Source of the DNA: Pseudomonas anguilliseptica | GTDB lineage: Bacteria > Pseudomonadota > Gammaproteobacteria > Pseudomonadales > Pseudomonadaceae | Reading direction: 5' to 3' | Assembly (NCBI RefSeq): GCF_900105355.1 | Contig: NZ_FNSC01000001.1 | Span: forward strand, 3,162,001-3,226,000 | DNA: 64,000 nucleotides | Shown here: positions 53,339-64,000 of the stretch, piece after piece | Position numbering within the stretch: position 1 is the stretch's first letter | Layout: each line of letters opens with the position of its first letter | Notes under the pieces: generated by a model | Databases searched by the model: none | What the model was told of the DNA's origin: nothing | What the model saw: only the letters and a program-made list of their open reading frames with translations | Translations under genes and position numbers: made by a program

Positions 53339-56300
53339 TCAGTTATGGTCGATTTTGATCAGTGGGTCGGCACCGGCAATCAGAGAGTTGACCAGATCAG
53401 CCTGGCTGAGATTGCCAGGATTGATATTGAAATTACCGCCGCTGCCGTTCTCCAGCTTGATGGTTACATCGGGGCTACCACCAGCGCCGAATTGGCCTGT
53501 AGTACTGATCTGCAGCGTTGAAGTTGCAGTATCGACGCGCAGGTAATTGAGAATATTGCCGTCATTCTCGCCTTGCAGCAGATCGTGCAAATCAATACGG
53601 TCACCTTCGCTGGCGTTGAAGTCCCGGACAATATCCCGACCACCCGCAGTGTTCAGATCACCGCGTTGCCAGAGGAACAAATCCTTACCTGTACCGCCAG
53701 TCAGCGTGTCGTTACCGAGACCGCCGCGCAGAATGTCGTCTCCGGCACCGCCATTGAGAATATCGTTGCCGGATTCACCATTGAGGAAGTCATTCCCTGC
53801 ATCGCCATTCAAGGTATCGTTGCCAAGCCCGCCGTAAAGATGATCGTTCCCGGCACCACCGTTGAGGGTGTCATTACCGTTATACCCACGAATGAGGTCA
53901 TTGCCCGTTGTACCGGTGAGTGTGTCGTTGCCGGAGGTCGCATTAGTCAGCGTATTAGTGGTTTCACTAACGGTTATGCTGAACGATTGCGAGCTGCTGG
54001 TTGTGTGGTTGTTAGCTGTTTCTGTGGCAGTGCCGGTTAGCGTCAGGTTCAACGTACCGGTATAGCCAGCAGGCGGCAGCAGATGCAGGTTGTTCAGGTC
54101 GCTGGCAGTCAGCGTCCAGCTGCCGTTGCCATTATCTGTACCTGCGCTCAGGCGTGCGCCTGCAGGAAGACCAGAAAGCACTAGGCCTAAAGTTTCGGAG
54201 CCATCCTTATCAGCCAGTTGTGCCGCAAGTGATAGCGCTATCGGTGCACCGTATAGCGTGGCGCTACCACTTTGGGTGAAGCTGGCCTTCGCTAAGGACA
54301 GCGATGAGTCCTTGGACGAGTCACCACCGTTTAGCACCAACCAACTAAAACTGTAATTACCACTTTGCGTCGCGGTATAGCTGAAGCTGCCATTGCTGGT
54401 GAGGCTAGGGAATTTGGATTCAGAAGAGTCAACTAGGAAGGTTTCGCGACTGGCATTTGGGCCTGTAACGATGACTACAACCAAATCGTTATAGCCACTC
54501 TGTACTTCGTTTGTGAGGCTTTCACCATTGGTAAAGGCGAAGTTCCACTTAACCGTGGTTCCATTTGCCATGTCGTAGTCGGAGTGCGTGACTTTACCGT
54601 CAACGACATTGACATTGACATTGCCGTTGTGGTTGACGTTTGGTCCCGTTGGGTTGAAACGGCCATCCAGGAACCCCGATGTAAGACCCAGCTCTGCTTC
54701 CAAGTCAGCTTGTGAGATACCGTTTCCTGCATCGAACGCTACAGTGTTGATCGCCGTATCGGTGCTGCCTGTCGAGATAACAGTGGCGCCTGGATTGAGT
54801 GCGAAAATATTCGCAACTGGCGATAGCAGCGGGTCATCCGCTTGCGGTGTGACCGTCACGGTAACTTGGGAGCTCGAAGTCCCACCCTTGCCATCACTGA
54901 CGCTGTACTGAATCAGCGCTGTGCCGCTGAAGTTGCCGGTTGGAGTAAAGCTCAGGGTGTTGTCGGCATTGACTACCACGGTACCGTTACTGGCTGTAGC
55001 CCCTGTAACGATCAGGCTGTCGCCATCGACGTCAGTATCATTAGCCAGCACATTGATGGTAACGGGCGTGTCTTCATTGGTTGTAGCGCTATCGGCAACT
55101 GCCGCAGGTGCATCGTTGACCGCTTTGACGCCGACTGTCACCGTTGCAGTGGACAGGCCACCCAGGCCATCACTCACGGTGTAAGTAAAGGTGGCCGCAC
55201 CGTTGTAGTTGGCGTCAGGGGTAAACACCACGTTGCCGCCAATCAGCGCGACGCTGCCATGCGTCGCCCCTTGCACACTGATGATGTTGATCGGGTTGCC
55301 ATCCGGATCCGTATCATTACCCAACAGAGTCGCTGGGCTGATGGTAAGAGCCTGATCTTCGTTGGTGACCAGGGCTGGGATTTCATTTTGTAGCGCACTG
55401 CCTCCCAATACGCTGTAGGAGCCGCCTTGCGGGCGAAGTTCAACAGTCAGTTGAGCCGCTCCACCCTGATCCCAGTAGACGATTTCGATTTGCTGAGCCC
55501 CACCCTGTGGAACGGTAAAGGTCAGAGACTCTCGAGCGGTCGCACCTTGGTTGCCGTTGTATTCGGCAACCGTCTGACCGTTGATGCGGATGCTGTAACC
55601 ATCATCTGCAGTTACGCGGAACTGATAAGTACCAGCGGCCAGGTTAACGATACCGTTGAGTTTGAGGATGGCATCGGAGGTATTTGCCGGATCAGTTGAC
55701 AAGCTGCCAGCATCAGCTTTGAGGAAGGTTTGCAGGCTGGTGCCGTTACCCAAGACGTCATTGCTCACCGGCCCGTAGTTCAGGTTGGTGGCTGTGAAGG
55801 TGGCAGTAGGTGCGCGGCCATTGATGAAGGTTTCAACCTGGCTGAGGCTGGTCAGGTTGGCGCCGTTAGTCCCTTCGTTGTAGCCAAAGTACTGACCAAC
55901 CAGCCCGGAAACCAGGTAGTTGTCGTTACTGGCAATTGGGTCACTATTGAGGTTCAGGCTGCCAGCACCACCTGCATTGCCGGCCAAATCGGTATAGCTA
56001 CCTGCAGGTAGGCTGACGCTCGGCGAACCGCCTCCTGTTGAGGTGAAAGTCGCCGTCCAGATGGCCGAGTTACCTGTCGACTGCACGAGATTACTGATCG
56101 TGCCGCCTGTAGGAACGATGTCACCTGCTGTAAAGCCAGTGACCGATTCGCTGAACGTAAAGGTCAGTGTTGTGGCCTCCCCGACCGACAGATTGCTGTC
56201 GTTGGTGCTGATGACAACGCTTGGGCCGCTGGTGTCGATGGTGACTTCACCGCTGGTGATATCGGTGGTGGTGTTGCTGGCGGCATCGGTGACGTCATAG

Positions 56301-57814
56301 GACTGGCCATCGACGAAGCTGCCCAGGGTGCCGGAAGCCGGCGTGGCGGTACCGGTGTCGAGGCTCCAGTTGCCGCTGCCATCGACAGGGACATTGGTGT
56401 AGGTCGCGCCGTTGACGGTGACGGTCAGGGTCTCGCCGGCGCCCAGGGTGGCGCTGCCGGTGATGACCGGGGTGGTGTCACTGGTGGTCTGGGTGTTGAC
56501 CACCGGCACGCTCGGCGCGCTGGTGTCGATGGTACCAACGTCTGTAGCGCTACCTGTATTGCCTGCAAGATCAGTGACGCTGGCAGTGACGTTGTAAGGT
56601 CCGTCAGTCAGGGCCGTCGGGGCGTCAACGCTATACGTGCCACCGTTAACTGTAGTAGTGACGTTATAGGTGTTTGAGCCTTGAGTGATACTAAGGCTGA
56701 TAGTGCTGCCGTCAGTGGCATCTGTAGTGCCACTAATAGTTGGGGTTGCGTCGCTAATATTATCTGGGGCGTCGCCGGTTATAACCGGCGGAATGGTATC
56801 CAAAGTGAATGTGAGCGCCGACGGAGCTGAGGTGTTGCCGGCAACGTCGGTCTGGCGCACTTGAATGGTGTTGATGCCTTCTACGGCGACCGGCGCCGTG
56901 GTGCTCCAGGTAATGCCGTCGGTGCTGTACTCGACGGTGGCGCCTGGCTCTGTGCCACTGACGCTGTAGGTGCCATCGTTGCTAACCAGGTCGCCTGGCA
57001 CGCCGCTGTCAGTAGTGAGGGCGAGGGTAGGCGCTGCGACCTGGGTATCGAGGGTAAAGGTCAGCGATGTTGAGGGCGATGTGTTGCCAGCAGTATCTGT
57101 TTGGCGAACCGAGACGGTGTTGCTGCCTTCGCTTGGTGTGAATGTATTGCTCCAAGTCGTTCCGCCATCGGTACTGTATTCGACCACTGCACCGGGTTCG
57201 ACTCCGCCAATAATCAACGTGCCGTCATTGCTGATGAGATCATTGGCACTGGTACCGCTGTCGTTAGCCAGGTTTACGCTGGGTGCAGTAGGGGCGGTGG
57301 TGTCCAAGTTGGCGTTTGCGGTAGTGGCTTGGTCTGTTTGTCCATCCGCACCGAACAACTCGTTCTGGCCAGCGCCGTCCAGGCCGATGTTTGACGTTTC
57401 AAAACCAATTGTTGCCTCAAGCTGCTGGCCAGTTTCCCCTAGCAGTACAAAGCTATGCCCGCCACCCGCTGCGCCACCAGTGCCTCCGCCTGCACCGGGA
57501 CCAGCCGCTGGGGCTTCGAGGTCGACAGTGGGGTCGAAGCCGGCGGTCAGGGCTTGCTCGAGGCCGGGGCTCGGCTCGGCTTTATCGTCCTCAGCTTGAG
57601 CCGCGCTGGGCGCTGCTTGCCAGTTACTGTTCTGCGCAACGTTGACCAGGTCACCATTAGCCAGTTGCAGGGTCACTTCGCCACCCAGGCCAGTCAGGAC
57701 CTGTTCGCCGATGAGCAGGCGTTCACCTTCGAAGATCTGCCGCTTCAGCCCGTCGAGGGAAACAGCAAATACTTGGCCAACAAGACTTTTTACGATGGCG
57801 ACGATAGTGCTCAT
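53339..57814 (-). CDS. LapA-like RTX adhesin with LapG-cleavable retention module
   Basis: 1491 residues. The N-terminal 125 residues form a LapA-type retention module (VGQVFAVSLDGLKRQIFEGERLLIGEQVLTG) with a di-alanine LapG site PAAG at 102-105. Ig-like Big repeats follow (about 165-630), then a PA14 domain (FRVTADDGYSIRINGQTVAEYNG), cadherin-like repeats (VNDAPAAVADSATTNEDTPV), and RTX calcium repeats of the GGxGNDxLxGG type near the C-terminus. A type I secretion signal closes the protein. Such adhesins stay in the outer membrane until LapG cuts them. It is short for the family, and no type I exporter genes (lapEBC) are in the window. lapD nearby is disrupted, and an IS5 copy sits 166 bp upstream of the start. 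Confidence 0.9.
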   Translation of the reverse strand: MSTIVAIVKSLVGQVFAVSLDGLKRQIFEGERLLIGEQVLTGLGGEVTLQLANGDLVNVAQNSNWQAAPSAAQAEDDKAEPSPGLEQALTAGFDPTVDLEAPAAGPGAGGGTGGAAGGGHSFVLLGETGQQLEATIGFETSNIGLDGAGQNELFGADGQTDQATTANANLDTTAPTAPSVNLANDSGTSANDLISNDGTLIIGGVEPGAVVEYSTDGGTTWSNTFTPSEGSNTVSVRQTDTAGNTSPSTSLTFTLDTQVAAPTLALTTDSGVPGDLVSNDGTYSVSGTEPGATVEYSTDGITWSTTAPVAVEGINTIQVRQTDVAGNTSAPSALTFTLDTIPPVITGDAPDNISDATPTISGTTDATDGSTISLSITQGSNTYNVTTTVNGGTYSVDAPTALTDGPYNVTASVTDLAGNTGSATDVGTIDTSAPSVPVVNTQTTSDTTPVITGSATLGAGETLTVTVNGATYTNVPVDGSGNWSLDTGTATPASGTLGSFVDGQSYDVTDAASNTTTDITSGEVTIDTSGPSVVISTNDSNLSVGEATTLTFTFSESVTGFTAGDIVPTGGTISNLVQSTGNSAIWTATFTSTGGGSPSVSLPAGSYTDLAGNAGGAGSLNLNSDPIASNDNYLVSGLVGQYFGYNEGTNGANLTSLSQVETFINGRAPTATFTATNLNYGPVSNDVLGNGTSLQTFLKADAGSLSTDPANTSDAILKLNGIVNLAAGTYQFRVTADDGYSIRINGQTVAEYNGNQGATARESLTFTVPQGGAQQIEIVYWDQGGAAQLTVELRPQGGSYSVLGGSALQNEIPALVTNEDQALTISPATLLGNDTDPDGNPINIISVQGATHGSVALIGGNVVFTPDANYNGAATFTYTVSDGLGGLSTATVTVGVKAVNDAPAAVADSATTNEDTPVTINVLANDTDVDGDSLIVTGATASNGTVVVNADNTLSFTPTGNFSGTALIQYSVSDGKGGTSSSQVTVTVTPQADDPLLSPVANIFALNPGATVISTGSTDTAINTVAFDAGNGISQADLEAELGLTSGFLDGRFNPTGPNVNHNGNVNVNVVDGKVTHSDYDMANGTTVKWNFAFTNGESLTNEVQSGYNDLVVVIVTGPNASRETFLVDSSESKFPSLTSNGSFSYTATQSGNYSFSWLVLNGGDSSKDSSLSLAKASFTQSGSATLYGAPIALSLAAQLADKDGSETLGLVLSGLPAGARLSAGTDNGNGSWTLTASDLNNLHLLPPAGYTGTLNLTLTGTATETANNHTTSSSQSFSITVSETTNTLTNATSGNDTLTGTTGNDLIRGYNGNDTLNGGAGNDHLYGGLGNDTLNGDAGNDFLNGESGNDILNGGAGDDILRGGLGNDTLTGGTGKDLFLWQRGDLNTAGGRDIVRDFNASEGDRIDLHDLLQGENDGNILNYLRVDTATSTLQISTTGQFGAGGSPDVTIKLENGSGGNFNINPGNLSQADLVNSLIAGADPLIKIDHN

Positions 57815-57980: not shown

Positions 57981-59172
57981 GGATCCTCTGAAGTAGCCAT
58001 GCATTTCTGGCTGACGTCAGCCTCTGCTGATTTCGAAAGTGATAAATCGATCAAAAACGATCAGATTACCGGCTCATTTCTGTGTTTTTAGCCGCCGCGA
58101 GCACCTCGCGGCAGCCATTTCCAGCATTACGGGCGCACCTCTCCTGCATTCGTCAGTAAATGTCGGCGCGCCATCCACAGATTTGACAGCGCGAATAAAG
58201 TCACCAGTTGCGCCGTGTTTTTGACCAGGCCACGGAAGCGCGTCTTCACATAACCGAACTGACGCTTGATCACCCGAAACGGATGCTCGACCTTGGCTCG
58301 CACTTGGGCCTTGGCCTTCTCGATTTTGCGCTTGGCTTTGTACAGCGCGCTGCGCGCGCCGAGTTTCTTGTAAGTGCTACGCCGTGCTGCAACCTGCCAG
58401 ATCACTTGACGGCCCTCATGCTCGGGGCGCTTCTCGACACCGGTATATCCGGCATCGGCCCCCACCATGTTTTCCTCGCCGTGCAGCAGCTTATCGACCT
58501 GGGTGACATCCGCCACGTTGGCGGCAGTACCCACCACGCGGTGCACCAAGCCAGACTCGTCATCCACCCCGATGTGCGCCTTCATGCCGAAGTAATACTG
58601 ATTGCCTTTCTTGGTTGAGTGCATCTCAGGGTCACGCTTACCGTTCTTGTTCTTGGTTGAACTCGGCGCGTTGATCAGCGTGGCATCGACGATGGTGCCT
58701 TGGCGCAGCGACAAACCACGGTCACCCAGGTAGCCATTGATCACGGCCAGGATGCCGGCAGCCAGTTCGTGTTTTTCCAGCAAGCGGCGGAAGTTGAGGA
58801 TGGTGGTTTCGTCAGGAATGCGCTCCAGAGTCAGCCCGGCAAACTGGCGTAGGATGGTGGTCTCGTACAGCGCCTCTTCCATCGCCGGATCGCTGTAACC
58901 GAACCAGTTTTGCATCAGATGCACTCGCAGCATCGCCATCAGCGGATAGGACGGTCGGCCGCCTTCACCCTTTGGATAATGCGGCTCGATCAAAGCGATC
59001 AACCCTTTCCATGGCACTACCCGATCCATCTCGATCAGGAACAATTCTTTGCGGGTCTGCTTGCGCTTGCCGGCGTACTCGGCGTCGGCGAAGGTCATCT
59101 GCTTCATCGGAAAACTCGGCGGGTGGAGTGCGGATATTTTGCCAAAATCAGGAAGTCTTTTTCAGGCCATCC
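57981..59172 (-). mobile_element. IS5-family insertion sequence, copy 2 (complete, 1192 bp)
   Basis: The left end is GGATCCTCTGAA and the right end TTCAGGCCATCC, the same termini and length as copy 1 but inverted. The flanking 4-mers are TAAA (57977-57980) and TCAA (59173-59176), so there is no perfect target duplication, unlike copy 1. This suggests that DNA on one side was rearranged after insertion. Confidence 0.93.
58127..59107 (-). CDS. IS5-family transposase (copy 2)
   Basis: 326 residues, full length, with the DDE residues in TIVDATLINAP, GADAGYTGVEK and EHPFRVIKRQFG. It differs from copy 1 at about three residues (HRVV, GADAGY, LGARS). Transcription runs away from pncC and toward the adhesin gene. 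Confidence 0.95.
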   Translation of the reverse strand: MKQMTFADAEYAGKRKQTRKELFLIEMDRVVPWKGLIALIEPHYPKGEGGRPSYPLMAMLRVHLMQNWFGYSDPAMEEALYETTILRQFAGLTLERIPDETTILNFRRLLEKHELAAGILAVINGYLGDRGLSLRQGTIVDATLINAPSSTKNKNGKRDPEMHSTKKGNQYYFGMKAHIGVDDESGLVHRVVGTAANVADVTQVDKLLHGEENMVGADAGYTGVEKRPEHEGRQVIWQVAARRSTYKKLGARSALYKAKRKIEKAKAQVRAKVEHPFRVIKRQFGYVKTRFRGLVKNTAQLVTLFALSNLWMARRHLLTNAGEVRP

Positions 59173-59781
59173 TCAATAGTTTCACTATCCGGCTAGCGCG
59201 AAACCGCCGTGCTTTGTATTGCTTGAGCGTTAGCTGTATCGATTTAACCAGCAGGGTGTTTAGACTTTTTCGGTTCAAGGTGTCAGGTTAGGCCAGCAGG
59301 GTGTTCACGTTGGTGCAGCGCCTACAGCTGTGGGGCACGTTGCAGCCGTGCCGGGTGCCAATAGCGCCGGGCTTGGGAATGAAGCGCGAGATTATGAGCC
59401 TGAGCTATATCACCAGGTGGGATCAGCTGCGGACGGTGAGGGCGGTTTAGGTTTGATAGGCGCCAGATAAACAAGGCCCGGTGTTGTGGGGTTACCCACG
59501 GCGCCGGGCCTTTTTTGTGCCTGGAATTTATGGGGCAAAATTGGGGCAAACCATACGCTACTCAATGCCACTCTATGCCGGCATGCTTGTTTGTGCCCTT
59601 GCTGCTGAAAGCACTCCAGCCCTTGCCGTGCGTGGCTTGCGCTTATTTGCCGCTGCTACTACCTCACAATCGGCGTGTGAGAACTGAGGTCGCTTTGGCT
59701 CATCGTTTTAACTGTCCGGCTGAATCGCAAAAGCGCCTAGTGTACGGTATCGGCCTGGCTGGCTTTAACCCCGGAGTGCAG
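59173..59781. other. Gene-poor region between IS5 copy 2 and pncC
   Basis: About 600 bp without a recognisable gene. In Pseudomonas, mutS normally lies upstream of pncC/cinA and recA; no mutS sequence is seen here. A strong terminator lies at 59473-59516. A frame reading QQGVHVGAAPTAVGHVA ends at about 59470, but it is open only from a stop near 59260 and resembles nothing known to me. The lack of a target duplication at the IS5 boundary fits lost DNA here. Confidence 0.5.
59473..59516 (+). terminator. Strong Rho-independent terminator
   Basis: AAGGCCCGGTG (59473-59483) pairs with CGCCGGGCCTT (59502-59512), with a further inner stem GTGGG/CCCAC and a T6 tail. The gene it once served is not evident. 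Confidence 0.85.
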
Positions 59782-60294
59782 ATGACTGCTAATGAATATG
59801 CCCTGACCCAATTGGCTGCCGAGCTGGGCAGGCAACTGATTGCCGCCAAGGCCCAGGTGACCACCGCAGAATCCTGTACTGGCGGCGGCATTGCCGAGGC
59901 GATTACCCGGATTCCCGGCAGCTCGGCCTGGTTTGAAGCGGGTTATGTCACTTACTCCAACGCGCAAAAGACTAAACAGTTGAATGTTCCCGAGGCGCTG
60001 TTTGCCACGGTTGGCGCAGTGAGTCAGGAGGTGGTCGAGGCCATGGTGCACGGGGCGCAGGCCCATAGTGGCGCGCGTTATGCCGTGGCAGTCAGCGGTG
60101 TCGCGGGGCCGGATGGCGGCTCGGCGGAGAAACCGGTGGGCACCGTCTGGCTGGCCTGGGGTGATGGTGAGCGGCTATTTAGCGTGCACCGGCAGTTTGC
60201 CGGGGATCGCAGCGAAGTTCGCCGACAAACGGTTGAGGCCGCGCTGGCTGGGCTGTTGCGCCTGCTGGCGCAAGAAAATCCAAACGCGGGGTAG
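59782..60294 (+). CDS. pncC: Nicotinamide-nucleotide amidase (CinA C-terminal domain, PncC)
   Basis: 170 residues from ATG 59782, with GGAG (59773-59776) upstream. It is the single CinA amidohydrolase domain: TTAESCTGGGIAEAITRIPGSSAWFEAGYVTYSNAQK and AVSGVAGPDGGSAEKPVGTVW, carrying the Ser/Lys catalytic region. The enzyme deamidates nicotinamide mononucleotide to nicotinate mononucleotide for NAD recycling. It lies directly upstream of recA, as in other pseudomonads. The longer open frame from 59515 lacks homology and is rejected. Confidence 0.9.
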   Translation: MTANEYALTQLAAELGRQLIAAKAQVTTAESCTGGGIAEAITRIPGSSAWFEAGYVTYSNAQKTKQLNVPEALFATVGAVSQEVVEAMVHGAQAHSGARYAVAVSGVAGPDGGSAEKPVGTVWLAWGDGERLFSVHRQFAGDRSEVRRQTVEAALAGLLRLLAQENPNAG

Positions 60295-60321
60295 GCGGGC
60301 AACTTGCCCTGTGGAATAATA

Positions 60322-60337
60322 CTGTCTACTTATACAG
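60322..60337 (+). promoter_or_regulatory. LexA box of the recA promoter
   Basis: CTGTCTACTTATACAG fits the CTG-N10-CAG LexA consensus of gammaproteobacteria. It lies 48 bp before the recA start. It indicates SOS control of transcription through the truncated host recA and, by read-through, the downstream recA. Confidence 0.9.
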
Positions 60338-60384
60338 TTGTTGGTGGCCGCTAGCTGGCCCTTCTTGATTACGTGAGGACTTAA

Positions 60385-60909
60385 ATGGACGAGAATAAGA
60401 AGCGCGCCTTGGCGGCAGCTCTGGGCCAGATTGAAAAGCAATTCGGCAAGGGCGCGGTGATGCGTATGGGCGATCATGATCGCCAGGCGATCCCGGCCAT
60501 CTCCACCGGCTCGCTGGGGCTGGACATCGCCCTGGGCATTGGCGGTCTGCCGAAAGGCCGTATCGTTGAAATCTACGGCCCTGAGTCCTCCGGTAAAACC
60601 ACCCTGACCCTGTCGGTAATTGCCGAAGCGCAGAAGCTGGGCGCCACCTGCGCCTTCGTCGATGCCGAACACGCCCTCGACCCTGATTACGCTGGCAAGC
60701 TCGGCGTCAACGTCGATGACCTGCTGGTGTCGCAGCCGGATACCGGCGAGCAGGCCCTGGAAATTACCGACATGCTGGTGCGCTCCAATGCCATCGACGT
60801 GATCATTGTCGACTCGGTTGCTGCCCTGGTGCCGAAAGCAGAGATTGAAGGCGAGATGGGCGACATGCACGTCGGCCTGCAGGATGCAGTATTCGGTGTT
60901 GCAGCATAG
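60385..60909 (+). pseudogene. recA: Host recA, truncated at codon 166
   Basis: A good ribosome site (GAGGA) precedes ATG 60385. The sequence is a typical high-GC Pseudomonas Rec[31 protein letters not shown], Walker [10 protein letters not shown], Walker B VIIVDSV and the L1 lead-in [14 protein letters not shown]. Homology ends at Gln166 (about 60883), where ARLMSQ should follow. Nine unrelated codons lead to a stop at 60909. The missing half contains L2 and the C-terminal domain, so the fragment cannot form active filaments. No 3' half is found in the window. It is followed 98 bp later by a complete, divergent recA. Confidence 0.93.
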
Positions 60910-61007
60910 ATTTGGTTCACTTAGGAGGTATCCTTTCCTCTCGTAGGGGCACGCTCTAAGCAAATCAGTAAGATTCGATTAATTACTAATTCGAGTGGTC
61001 GATAAGA

Positions 61008-62051
61008 ATGGATCAGGCAAAAAGCAAAGCGTTAGAAGCGGCTCTCTCACAGATTGAGAAGCAGTTTGGTAAGGGTTCCATTATGCGACTGGGTTCAGAT
61101 CGCACTATGGATATCGATGTCATATCGACCGGCTCGCTTGGTCTGGACATCGTTCTAGGCGTAGGCGGTTTGCCGCGCGGTCGTATTGTAGAGATATACG
61201 GGCCTGAGTCTTCGGGTAAGACGACTCTAACACTCTCAGTTATTGCTGAAGCGCAACGTCAAGGGCTGACATGTGCATTTATCGATGCCGAGCATGCACT
61301 TGACCCAATCTACGCAGCAAAGCTTGGCGTTAATATTGATGATCTCCTGTGCTCGCAGCCAGATACCGGAGAGCAGGCGCTCGAGATCGTGGATATCCTT
61401 ACTAGATCTGGTGCTATTAATCTTATTGTTGTCGACTCAGTGGCAGCTCTTACACCCAAAGCTGAAATCGAAGGTGAAATTGGGGATATGCACGTTGGGT
61501 TGGCCGCGCGCATGATGAGTCAGGCAATGCGTAAGATTACGGGTAACCTTAAAAACTCGAACACTATGTGTATCTTCATTAACCAAATTCGTATGAAGAT
61601 AGGTGTTATGTTTGGGAGCCCTGAAACTACAACTGGCGGTAACGCCCTGAAATTCTATGCCTCTGTACGTCTGGATATCCGTCGCACCGGTGCAGTGAAG
61701 GAAGGTGACGAAGTTGCCGGCAGTGAAACCCGTGTAAAAGTTGTAAAGAATAAAGTTGCAGCACCTTTTAAACAAGCAGAGTTCCAAATTATTTACGGCC
61801 AAGGTATTAGTAAGGTAGGTGAAATTGTAGACTTGGCGGTCGCAAATAATTTTATCGATAAATCAGGTGCTTGGTATGCCTTTGAAGGCAATAAGATCGG
61901 CCAAGGCAAGGCCAATACCATGAAGTGGCTGTTGGAAAACAAAGCCACCATGGACAAGATTGAAGGTATGATCCGCGAGAAAATGATGCCTAAGAAACAA
62001 GCTGAATCCGGTGCCCCGGCGCCTGAAAAACAGCCTGAAGTCGAAGTTTGA
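61008..62051 (+). CDS. recA: Recombinase RecA, complete divergent second copy
   Basis: 347 residues with every RecA landmark: Walker [14 protein letters not shown], Walker [11 protein letters not shown], loop L1 [26 protein letters not shown], loop L2 [27 protein letters not shown] and a C-terminal domain ending in a mildly acidic tail (EKQPEVEV). The codons are far richer in A/T wobble bases than the truncated host copy (ATA, TTA and AAT are frequent), and the C-terminus ([28 protein letters not shown]) is not of Pseudomonas type. It has no LexA box of its own that I can find and only a weak ribosome site, so it probably depends on the host recA promoter. It should supply RecA function to this cell. 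Origin in a lower-GC gammaproteobacterium, carried by an island, is inferred. Confidence 0.93.
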
Positions 62052-62120
62052 TAGTTTGCAGTCCAGCGAAACTTGGCCGAAATTATTACAGCTTCCGGTA
62101 GTGTCAGTCAGTCTTGGAAG

Positions 62121-62148
62121 ACCTGGCTGCTAAAGCCAGGTTTCCCTT
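62121..62148 (+). terminator. Terminator after the second recA
   Basis: ACCTGGCT (62121-62128) pairs with AGCCAGGT (62134-62141) over a 5-nt loop, followed by TTCCCTTT. Confidence 0.75.
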
Positions 62149-62178
62149 TAGGCTCTGTAAAGGTTAAATATCTAATAC

Positions 62179-62210
62179 GGCCTGGCTTTCAAAGCTGGGC
62201 CTTTTATTTT
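62179..62210 (+). terminator. Second hairpin terminator after recA
   Basis: GGCCTGGCTTT pairs with AAAGCTGGGCC with two imperfect pairs, followed by TTTTATTTT. It stands about 40 bp after the first hairpin and resembles it in sequence. Confidence 0.65.
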
Positions 62211-62616
62211 GTGTTGAGGCGGATTTTAGATCGTGTCGCTAATTTGCACTATCCGCAGATTATAAGTCTAGTAGAGATGGTGGGTGCTCCCCTATCTGCT
62301 AAGCAACTGTTTTGTTTCTTTTAAATTTTTTGGACTTTTATGTTAGTCCAGGTGATCTGAAAAAAGATCTGCTCATTTATTGGCAATCTAACTAACGCAG
62401 GATGTAGTGATCCGTGTTTTTCAGTGAGTATGGAAGGTTCTCTCCTGGATTGCTCCTCTACTCGACTAGCTAACAATACAGCCTCAGTTAACGGATAGTG
62501 CTGCAGAAGACTCTAGGCTTGGTTTCTTACGCTCTCAGGACGAGTTTTATCCCTGGCCAGCTACTGTAAGAATCCCGGGGCGTACAACGCTACGGGTACG
62601 CTCATAAGCCCTGAAT
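62211..62616. other. AT-rich gene-free stretch after the second recA
   Basis: About 400 bp, lower in GC than the Pseudomonas background, with no convincing coding frame. recX, the usual neighbour of recA in Pseudomonas, is absent. It probably belongs to the foreign DNA that brought the second recA. Confidence 0.5.
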
Positions 62617-62780
62617 TCATAGAATAAGTGCAACGCTTGAAACGATAGGCAGAGGGCCAGCCACCGATAGAATCCAGGCTCTCACACCAAAAGATTCAAG
62701 CGCAGATGACTACGCATTACCCGCAGCTGACCCTGGCCCAACGTTACCAGATTGAGGCTGGATTGGCCTGTGGCATGAGT
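62617..62780 (+). mobile_element. IS30-family element, 5' fragment
   Basis: The transposase start at 62706 reads MTTHYPQLTLAQRYQIEAGLACGMS, the characteristic IS30 N-terminus, and is cut after 25 codons by the IS66 end at 62781. The left limit near 62617 is estimated from the leader; the terminal repeat was not verified. The rest would lie beyond the IS66 element, outside the window. Confidence 0.7.
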
Positions 62781-62863
62781 GTAAGCGCTCCATAAACCTC
62801 ATCTACAAATGATCCGCAGGCCAGCCAATGCTGAGCTCCAATTTCTTTCTGGAGCCAGCCGTC

Positions 62864-63223
62864 ATGATGCGCCCCGACGCCAAAGTCGAAAAAGTCTATC
62901 TATACCCCAAGCCGGTGGATTTCCGAAAATCCATCGATGGCCTGGCCGCCCTGGTCGAGCTGGATATCAAGGTGGCGGTGTTCGACCCGGTGCTGTTCGT
63001 CTTCCTCAACCGCGCGCGCAGCCGGGTGAAGATTTTGTATTGGGAGCGCAACGGCTTTTGCCTGTGGCTCAAGCGATTGGAGGCTGAACGCTTCAAGTCG
63101 CATCCGGAACCTGGCGAAGATGCGATCGTGCTGACGGCCCAGGAGTTGAACTGGTTGTTGGACGGTATCGACCTGTGGCGCAACCGGCCGCACCAGGTTT
63201 TGACCCCTAGGTTCGTCACCTGA
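62864..63223 (+). CDS. tnpB: IS66 accessory protein TnpB
   Basis: About 119 residues. KVYLYPKPVDFRKSIDGLAALV and VFLNRARSRVKILYWERNGFCLWLKRLE are the TnpB (IS66 Orf2) signature. It is required with TnpC for transposition of most IS66 elements. The start is ATG 62864 or 62867; a longer frame from 62828 is open. tnpC follows after 18 bp. Confidence 0.92.
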   Translation: MMRPDAKVEKVYLYPKPVDFRKSIDGLAALVELDIKVAVFDPVLFVFLNRARSRVKILYWERNGFCLWLKRLEAERFKSHPEPGEDAIVLTAQELNWLLDGIDLWRNRPHQVLTPRFVT

Positions 63224-63241
63224 GCCGGTATAATCCACGGC

Positions 63242-64000
63242 ATGATTTCTGTGCCCGAAACCCTTCCTGATGACCCCGCCGCGCTCAAGCAATTGCTCGC
63301 TGAGGTGTTGTCGTCGGCGCAGGAATTGGCCAAGGACAAGGATGGGCAGATCGAGCGCCTGCGCGAACAAAACGCGCTGTTGATCCAGCGCCTGTTCGGC
63401 CGTAAATCCGAGCAGAGCAGCGACCCGGATTCACCGCAGCTAGAGATGTTCAACGAAGCGGAAAGCCTGGCCGAAGCGGCGGCTGAAGCTCCGGCCGCTG
63501 AGGTCGAGGAAGAAGTCGTTGCGCCGACCAAGCGCCGCGGCAAGCGCAAGCCGTTACCGGCCGAACTACCGCGTGTCGAGGTCATCCACGAACTGCCCGA
63601 ACACGAACTGACCTGCGAATGCGGTTGCCGCAAGCAGGCCATCGGCGAAGAAACCAGCGAGCAGCTGGAAATCATCCCGATGCAGGTTCAGGTGATCCGC
63701 CACATTCGCAAGACCTATGCCTGCAAGGCCTGCGAAAGCGCGCCGGTCACCGCTGACAAACCGGCCCAACTGATCGAGAAAAGGCTGGCCAGCCCGAGCG
63801 TGCTGGCGATGCTGCTGACCAGCAAATACGCCGACGGCATCCCACTGTATCGCTTCGAAAAGATGCTCAGTCGCCATGGCATCGACATCCCCCGGCAGAC
63901 CCTGGCGCGCTGGGTGATCCAGTGCGGCGAACTGCTACAACCGTTGCTCAACCTGATGCGCGACAGGCTGCTGGACAGTCCGGTGATCCACTGCGATGAA
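63242..64000 (+). CDS. tnpC: IS66 transposase TnpC (partial, 3' end outside window)
   Basis: 253 codons to the window edge. An N-terminal leucine-zipper-like helix (AQELAKDKDGQIERLREQNALLIQRLFGRKSE) is followed by a zinc-binding cluster CECGC...CKAC and the start of the DDE domain (SVLAMLLTSKYADGIPLYRFEKML...). The frame is open through 64000. It appears intact as far as it can be seen. Confidence 0.92.
   Translation, partial: MISVPETLPDDPAALKQLLAEVLSSAQELAKDKDGQIERLREQNALLIQRLFGRKSEQSSDPDSPQLEMFNEAESLAEAAAEAPAAEVEEEVVAPTKRRGKRKPLPAELPRVEVIHELPEHELTCECGCRKQAIGEETSEQLEIIPMQVQVIRHIRKTYACKACESAPVTADKPAQLIEKRLASPSVLAMLLTSKYADGIPLYRFEKMLSRHGIDIPRQTLARWVIQCGELLQPLLNLMRDRLLDSPVIHCDE

Follow-up and report, generated by a model that had tools for sequence, protein, structure and literature searches.

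How did a recA gene of Pseudomonas anguilliseptica come to stop at a single codon and to be followed at once by a second, divergent recA? The question is raised by a stretch of 64,000 nucleotides (assembly GCF_900105355.1, contig NZ_FNSC01000001.1, positions 3,162,001 to 3,226,000), called here the window. The contig carrying the window is designated C1, while C2 is a separate 206-kb contig of the same genome. The relevant features are the following, where coordinates without a prefix are those of the window.

58001 to 59172, minus strand: IS5-type element (type assigned by eye), belonging to a set of at least 40 near-identical genomic copies.
59669 to 62307, plus strand: duplicated block, whose second copy starts from C2:192427, with 5 base differences.
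60322 to 60337, plus strand: SOS box CTGTCTACTTATACAG upstream of host recA, an exact CTGT-N8-ACAG, which we take to be of LexA type.
60385 to 60882, plus strand: 5' part of host recA, codons 1 to 166, closing in the target hexamer CTGCAG (Leu165-Gln166) at 60877-60882.
60883 to 60909, plus strand: left end of the element, composed of the 9-bp terminal repeat GATGCAGTA and in-frame codons, jointly encoding DAVFGVAA and a stop that close the truncated RecA.
60910 to 61007, plus strand: rest of the element leader, a hairpin-like conserved stretch in which a consensus scan found neither a LexA box nor a sigma-70-like plus-strand site.
61008 to 62051, plus strand: complete element-type recA, 347 aa, with Leu-Ala at the target codons and Val49 in place of the Ala49 of the C2 copy.
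62179 to 62201, plus strand: hairpin resembling an intrinsic terminator, 3' of the element recA.
62781 to 64000, plus strand: IS66-type insertion sequence (type assigned by eye), which adjoins the C2 copy as well.
C1:41180-41734, minus strand: 3' half of host recA, with the RecA family match at C1:41423-41734.

A native-type recA starts at 60385 and is intact to Gln166, its match ending past codon 166 at 60882, as claimed in the initial annotation. The foreign tail appended to it consists of 8 codons and a stop, producing a 174-aa ORF (60385-60909), and the distance between the host cut and the next recA corresponds to a leader of 125 bp. The presence of a complete, AT-richer recA starting after this leader was likewise confirmed: its product scores 551.6 bits against an NCBIfam recA cut-off of 325.3, and the GC content is 0.47, compared with 0.42 in the leader and 0.62 in the host recA 5' part. 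Terminator-like hairpins were found at 2 sites vs 2.0 expected in shuffled sequences, so that the one at 62179-62201 is weak evidence on its own.

Two further segments of the window were recorded. A 496-bp stretch (59173-59668) has the IS5 on one side and the duplicated block on the other, and a 102-base piece of it recurs, at 91% identity, at C1:2550670. On the minus strand, 53339-57814 contains a 1491-aa ORF which, by eye, resembles a large repeat adhesin.

Very probably, the locus represents a recA mobile element (RME), seen here at its left end and later broken by the activity of insertion sequences. As far as can be judged from the sequence, a mobile DNA island located at one exact recA codon inactivated the host gene and supplied its own, distant recA.

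Other insertions at the same codon were found in seven Pseudomonas or Stutzerimonas genomes (one a MAG), one IMG/VR contig and four plasmids. Scanning the species-genome collection with a pattern made of recA joined to the element end detected 19 stretches; 12 are without a recA match, and the seven that hold recA, each with its 5' half, the leader and an element recA, all show the same cut. They belong to MAG MM_PW_MetaG.mb.5 (whose match coordinates coincide with those of G075), P. frederiksbergensis SI8, P. mendocina EF27, S. chloritidismutans AW-1, P. chengduensis 402, S. kunmingensis 28M-8 and P. indica NBRC 103045, and in 7/7 the recA 3' half lies on another contig. The scan of viral_contigs returned a single stretch, with cinA upstream. 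The plasmids are those of P. putida YC-AE1, pNY11173-DIM, pKF715A, for which no separate recA 3' half was found, and pTTS12, the P. putida S12 megaplasmid (L117 9598-15248), where the plasmid recA is split, the element recA is missing and an insertion sequence sits in the leader. Since the identical cut and the identical joined sequence occur in other species and on plasmids, a chance cut is excluded.

In a DNA search of the window against 398 genomes of the genus, the element recA was found, among the matches listed, in this genome and in G075 only, the other listed matches showing 70-74% identity, as for native recA. A wider host range was considered and rejected: ORF2 of the element (see below) gave one weak 76-residue match in 369 genomes of the class and only 28-38% matches in 10 of the 398 genus genomes, and a search of 72,556 plasmid records detected ORF2 in 2 and ORF4 in 1. 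In the recA loci of Vibrio plasmids, recA is unsplit and no integrase is listed.

Both ends of the element are identifiable in this genome, the left one in the window and the right one at C1:41.7 kb, and they carry short inverted repeats (GATGCAGTA / GAAGCAGTA). In general, right ends read GAAGCAGTA or AAAGCAGTA, inverted relative to GATGCAGTA or TATGCAGTA at the left. Eleven right ends were read: nine are full, that of pNY11173-DIM is interrupted a short way inward by other DNA, and the eleventh is that of pTTS12. Each shows TACTGCTT, then three bases, then a Leu-Gln codon pair, then Ala167. The right hexamer thus encodes Leu-Gln in 11/11, differing from the left hexamer in 7/11 and matching it in 4/11. 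In this genome the left hexamer is CTGCAG and the right one CTCCAG; this imperfect pair is the only repeat that was observed to be shared by the two borders, and a direct repeat matching 60870-60884, as initially predicted, was not found.

Two empty sites bear on the origin of the right hexamer. Plasmid p12969-DIM, whose two recA halves are 100% identical to those of pNY11173-DIM, is the empty site for the latter: the empty hexamer is CTGCAG, and the occupied site has CTGCAG at the left and CTTCAG at the right. In this one clean case the right Leu-Gln hexamer was brought in by the element; since it always codes for Leu-Gln, we infer that it stems from the recA of a previous host. For YC-AE1 an empty-site relative is 100% identical on both sides, and all three hexamers are alike, which makes the pair uninformative on this point. 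The elements span 19,824 bp in YC-AE1 and 4,138 bp, as a remnant, in pNY11173-DIM. Plasmid records matching the recA 5' half of this genome number 122, of which 105 at 99% identity or more.

The tail of the truncated RecA reads LQ[D/Y]AV...AA in all 13 left ends read, several of which are identical. A role of this tail as a degron was considered and is speculation only, because the variable sites by codon position (3/3/5 for the left end, 11/6/9 for the in-frame extension on the right) do not demonstrate a coding constraint. An RNA hairpin in the leader was also discarded as a candidate: it is partly kept in 7 aligned leaders, with pairing that, by eye, is not clearly compensated.

In the better-preserved elements, recA occupies one end and a recombinase operon of four genes the other; the cargo enclosed by these fixed ends varies, by eye, from element to element. 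From the right end inward, the operon comprises ORF1 (582-602 aa), ORF2 (626-638 aa), ORF3 (184-186 aa) and ORF4 (427-428 aa). ORF4 matches Phage_integrase with 27.7 bits (cut-off 27.1), XerD-like models remaining below cut-off; ORF2 matches the PHROG 1 integrase (3.5e-7), without any match in Pfam or NCBIfam; ORF1 and ORF3 gave no convincing match in Pfam, NCBIfam and PHROG searches. Among the database relatives listed for ORF2 (34) and ORF4 (29), all named organisms are Pseudomonas or Stutzerimonas, in a search reaching only sequences that share short exact words. The operon would be responsible for integration. Mobility is suggested by the relatives, one of which (YC-AE1) has ORF4 in pieces.

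The origin of the second RecA was evaluated with a quick maximum-likelihood tree of 77 rows, obtained from 96 collected RecA rows after removal of 5 that were odd or hybrid and of every other row among the 28 natives. All 27 element RecAs form one group (support 99), whose nearest neighbours are the RecAs of Alteromonas and Shewanella, and the 14 native Pseudomonas RecAs form a separate group (support 98); the second RecA therefore falls outside native Pseudomonas RecA, as the initial annotation had anticipated. Element RecAs are about 73-78% identical to the native halves. The target codon specifies Ala in 12/12 element RecAs (two from this genome), Gln in 28/28 native Pseudomonas RecAs and Gln in 28 of 29 other RecAs, taken as the best-scoring loci of a 66-genome sample of the class. 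Having Leu-Ala at the target codons, the element recA should not be its own target, and self-immunity would fit the anatomy; immunity may also be mere ancestry, since the sister RecAs of Alteromonas and Shewanella share Leu-Ala. Hybrid recAs were observed in the database: P0079, P0080 and P0082 combine an element front with a native-like rear, and P0086 shows the reverse. They suggest that recombination may occur between element and host recA.

Lying 125 bp inside the left end and in the same orientation, the element recA is placed behind the SOS-controlled promoter of host recA. With up to one mismatch allowed in its two conserved ends, a LexA box was detected in none of 12 leaders (two from this genome). 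Upstream of host recA an exact box is present in this genome and in L061, and a one-mismatch box in five more chromosomal hosts, the sequence of L064 being too short upstream for the search. A scan of the plus strand between 60280 and 62330 detected no sigma-70-like site, and hence would also have overlooked such a promoter of host recA. It is thus likely that on chromosomes the element recA is expressed from the host promoter; on plasmids this would be conjectural, because the upstream stretch searched for three plasmid-borne recA 5' halves contains no LexA box. In the C2 copy, an IS5 is interposed between the host promoter and the element recA. For comparison, the LexA box of V. cholerae is given as CTGT-(AT)4-ACAG, and the recA_RME promoter described there has a LexA box of its own, unlike the leaders analysed here (PMC4405046).

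The search for the remaining parts covered the ORFs of 30 kb to the right of the window, out of the 100 kb proposed initially, and the whole genome for RecA and ORF2. The RecA family search gave five matches: two complete element-type RecAs and two native 5' halves, in both cases one on C1 and one on C2, and a single native 3' half. The element type is the sole complete kind of recA found in the genome, an absence that would fit the idea, advanced at the outset, of an element making itself indispensable. The native 3' half, expected beyond the window, does exist and is accompanied by recX; it lies, however, on C1 at 3.18 Mb from the window copy (or at 1.84 Mb in the other direction, were C1 circular) and in opposite orientation. 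The gene recX, reported as missing, is not adjacent to the window copy; it was recognized by eye at C1:40704-41168, adjoining the 3' half.

The order mutS-cinA-recA and that of recA-recX are typical of Pseudomonas. ORFs resembling mutS, cinA and the recA 5' part were recognized by eye in line on C2, which also holds the only trmD match of the genome and ORFs resembling ffh, rimM and prfB. On the basis of the trmD match and of the mutS-cinA-recA 5' arrangement, C2:1-206092 is probably an unplaced piece of the chromosome, or possibly a separate replicon; a plasmid was ruled out by the core-type ORFs (ffh, rimM, prfB, mutS, by eye) together with the sole trmD match. As the typical synteny survives on C2 to the left of the cut and on C1 to its right, the break is located inside the element.

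The window and C2 blocks differ at 60301, 61153, 61664, 61848 and 62293; the C2 copy has in addition an IS5 within the leader, with a further mismatch at 60961, corresponding to the edge of that IS5. With the near relative L061 as a reference, three of these positions are derived in the window copy, namely 61153 (Ala49Val), 61664 (silent) and 60301 (before recA), and one, 61848 (Asn281Asp), in the C2 copy, while 62293 could not be polarised. The segment around Val49 of the window copy is conserved. At 59669, the duplication begins at a point which is not the end of an IS. The window copy appears to be a displaced duplicate of the recA end of the element.

The initial annotation had predicted a recombinase at the far border. 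Such genes do occupy the right border in relatives; here the terminal repeat is found together with pieces of ORF1 around an IS5, the remnant covering residues 1-39, 34-121 and 117-198 of 582 and being broken by a frameshift and the IS5. ORF2 has no match anywhere in this genome, and no match for ORF2 to ORF4 was found in the window, on C2 or in L006, L007 and L008. IS5 has at least 43 matches in the genome, 40 of which are full length at 99-100% (40 of 199 candidates scored). With ORF2 absent, ORF1 broken and the halves scattered, the element of this genome appears to be a fossil, and simple excision would no longer be able to restore the host gene.

A compatible late stage of the mobile element reading, considered rather probable, is a domestication of the element recA: the element would be dead, its recA would be an ordinary chromosomal gene, and one of the two copies would be dispensable. 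The lack of an ORF2 match, the broken ORF1 and the absence of any other complete recA point in this direction, as do the hybrid recAs of the databases, suggestive of recombination between element and host genes; either of the two copies might be the active one.

Less probable, and on the whole unlikely, is an assembly artefact: collapse or misjoining of IS repeats, or a mixture of strains, would then have produced the split recA and its duplicate. The presence of two copies is known from a single assembly, and in a genome so rich in IS, with near-identical IS5 copies, misjoins could arise; the unplaced 206-kb C2, with its core genes and the sole trmD match, and the duplication edge lacking an IS end are in keeping with such an origin. 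The same recA/element junction is however present in independent assemblies and in complete plasmids, and the window and C2 copies are distinguished by 5 bases as well as an IS5, so that an artefact could account for the position of the window copy, not for the cut. Plain horizontal gain of another recA through IS-mediated recombination, the truncation of the host gene being accidental, is suggested by the IS elements crowding the region, but is hardly credible, being already contradicted by the recurrence at the exact site, with conserved terminal repeats at the same codon in 12 other insertions, fixed ends enclosing (by eye) different content, and exact empty sites.

According to the preferred explanation, a recA mobile element, site-specific and provided with tyrosine-recombinase genes, would have entered host recA at the boundary of codons Gln166 and Ala167, so that the host CTGCAG stayed at the left and another Leu-Gln hexamer was brought in at the right. 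Its own recA would replace the lost host function. IS activity would later have broken the element, with decay of the recombinase genes and the host recA halves ending 3.18 Mb apart, and the recA end would have been copied to the position of the window.

The kind of element is already known from Vibrio; what is new is its Pseudomonas branch, the footprint and the fossil state described here. In V. cholerae S24 recA is disrupted at bp 494 by an RME with a divergent recA at one end, an integrase at the other and 9-bp inverted repeats; it differs from the present one in carrying umuDC and other repair genes (PMC4405046). The similarity of strategy to V. cholerae proposed initially is upheld, as bp 494 falls by coordinate within the hexamer of the window (bp 493-498); with the same codon used in relatives, this agrees by coordinate with the RME range of bp 491-494. 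Excision, re-insertion and UV protection in E. coli are described for the V. cholerae RME (Rapa et al., PMC4405046). Islands in recA with a second recA are reported in V. parahaemolyticus (PMC4334540, PMC7820670). In strain 090-96 the insertion lies inside recA at bp 491, and the 3' half adjoins four genes of ~650, 674, 243 and 435 codons, the first two large and hypothetical, the third smaller and the last a phage integrase; by coordinates they are similar to ORF1-ORF4. Unlike here, the repeats are of 6 bp (PMC4334540). A parallel of gene damage and compensation is drawn in PMC5991714. PMC9345347 and PMC4993456 yielded nothing of relevance.

Other integrative elements share single traits. Strand-biased circularizing integrative elements have a recombinase operon at one end, imperfect inverted repeats and 6 bp of the old site carried on to the new one, a trait found here in one clean case (pNY11173-DIM); they differ in their genes (intA-tfp-intB-srap) and in that recombination of the ends makes no empty site (PMC10214605). 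GInts, present in Pseudomonas, have a four-gene recombination operon at one end and variable cargo, but consist of three integrases followed by the small ginD and then cargo, whereas here the small gene is third and the integrase fourth; their targets are an ABC transporter and ssb, and the word 'recA' is absent from the text describing them (PMC5385486). In the open-access literature covered by the searches, no paper on a recA mobile element in Pseudomonas was listed.

Tentatively, and with considerable doubt, the Pseudomonas RMEs could be viewed as gene-replacement elements specialised for recA itself: their target would be the Leu-Gln codons of the L1 region, their own RecA would lack it and escape self-hits, the absence of an SOS box of their own would commit them to the host promoter, the Ala-Ala tail might mark the truncated RecA for proteolysis, and six bases of the last host would be kept as a record.

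The recA gene is a standard marker and is central to repair and the SOS response. The element has swapped it repeatedly across Pseudomonas, is also present in the recA genes of megaplasmids, which could be its carriers, and may be the source of hybrid recA genes. Phylogenies would be misled by such an element, and both repair and the SOS response could be altered in a single step. The locus of P. anguilliseptica represents a natural test of whether a foreign RecA alone can run a Pseudomonas cell.
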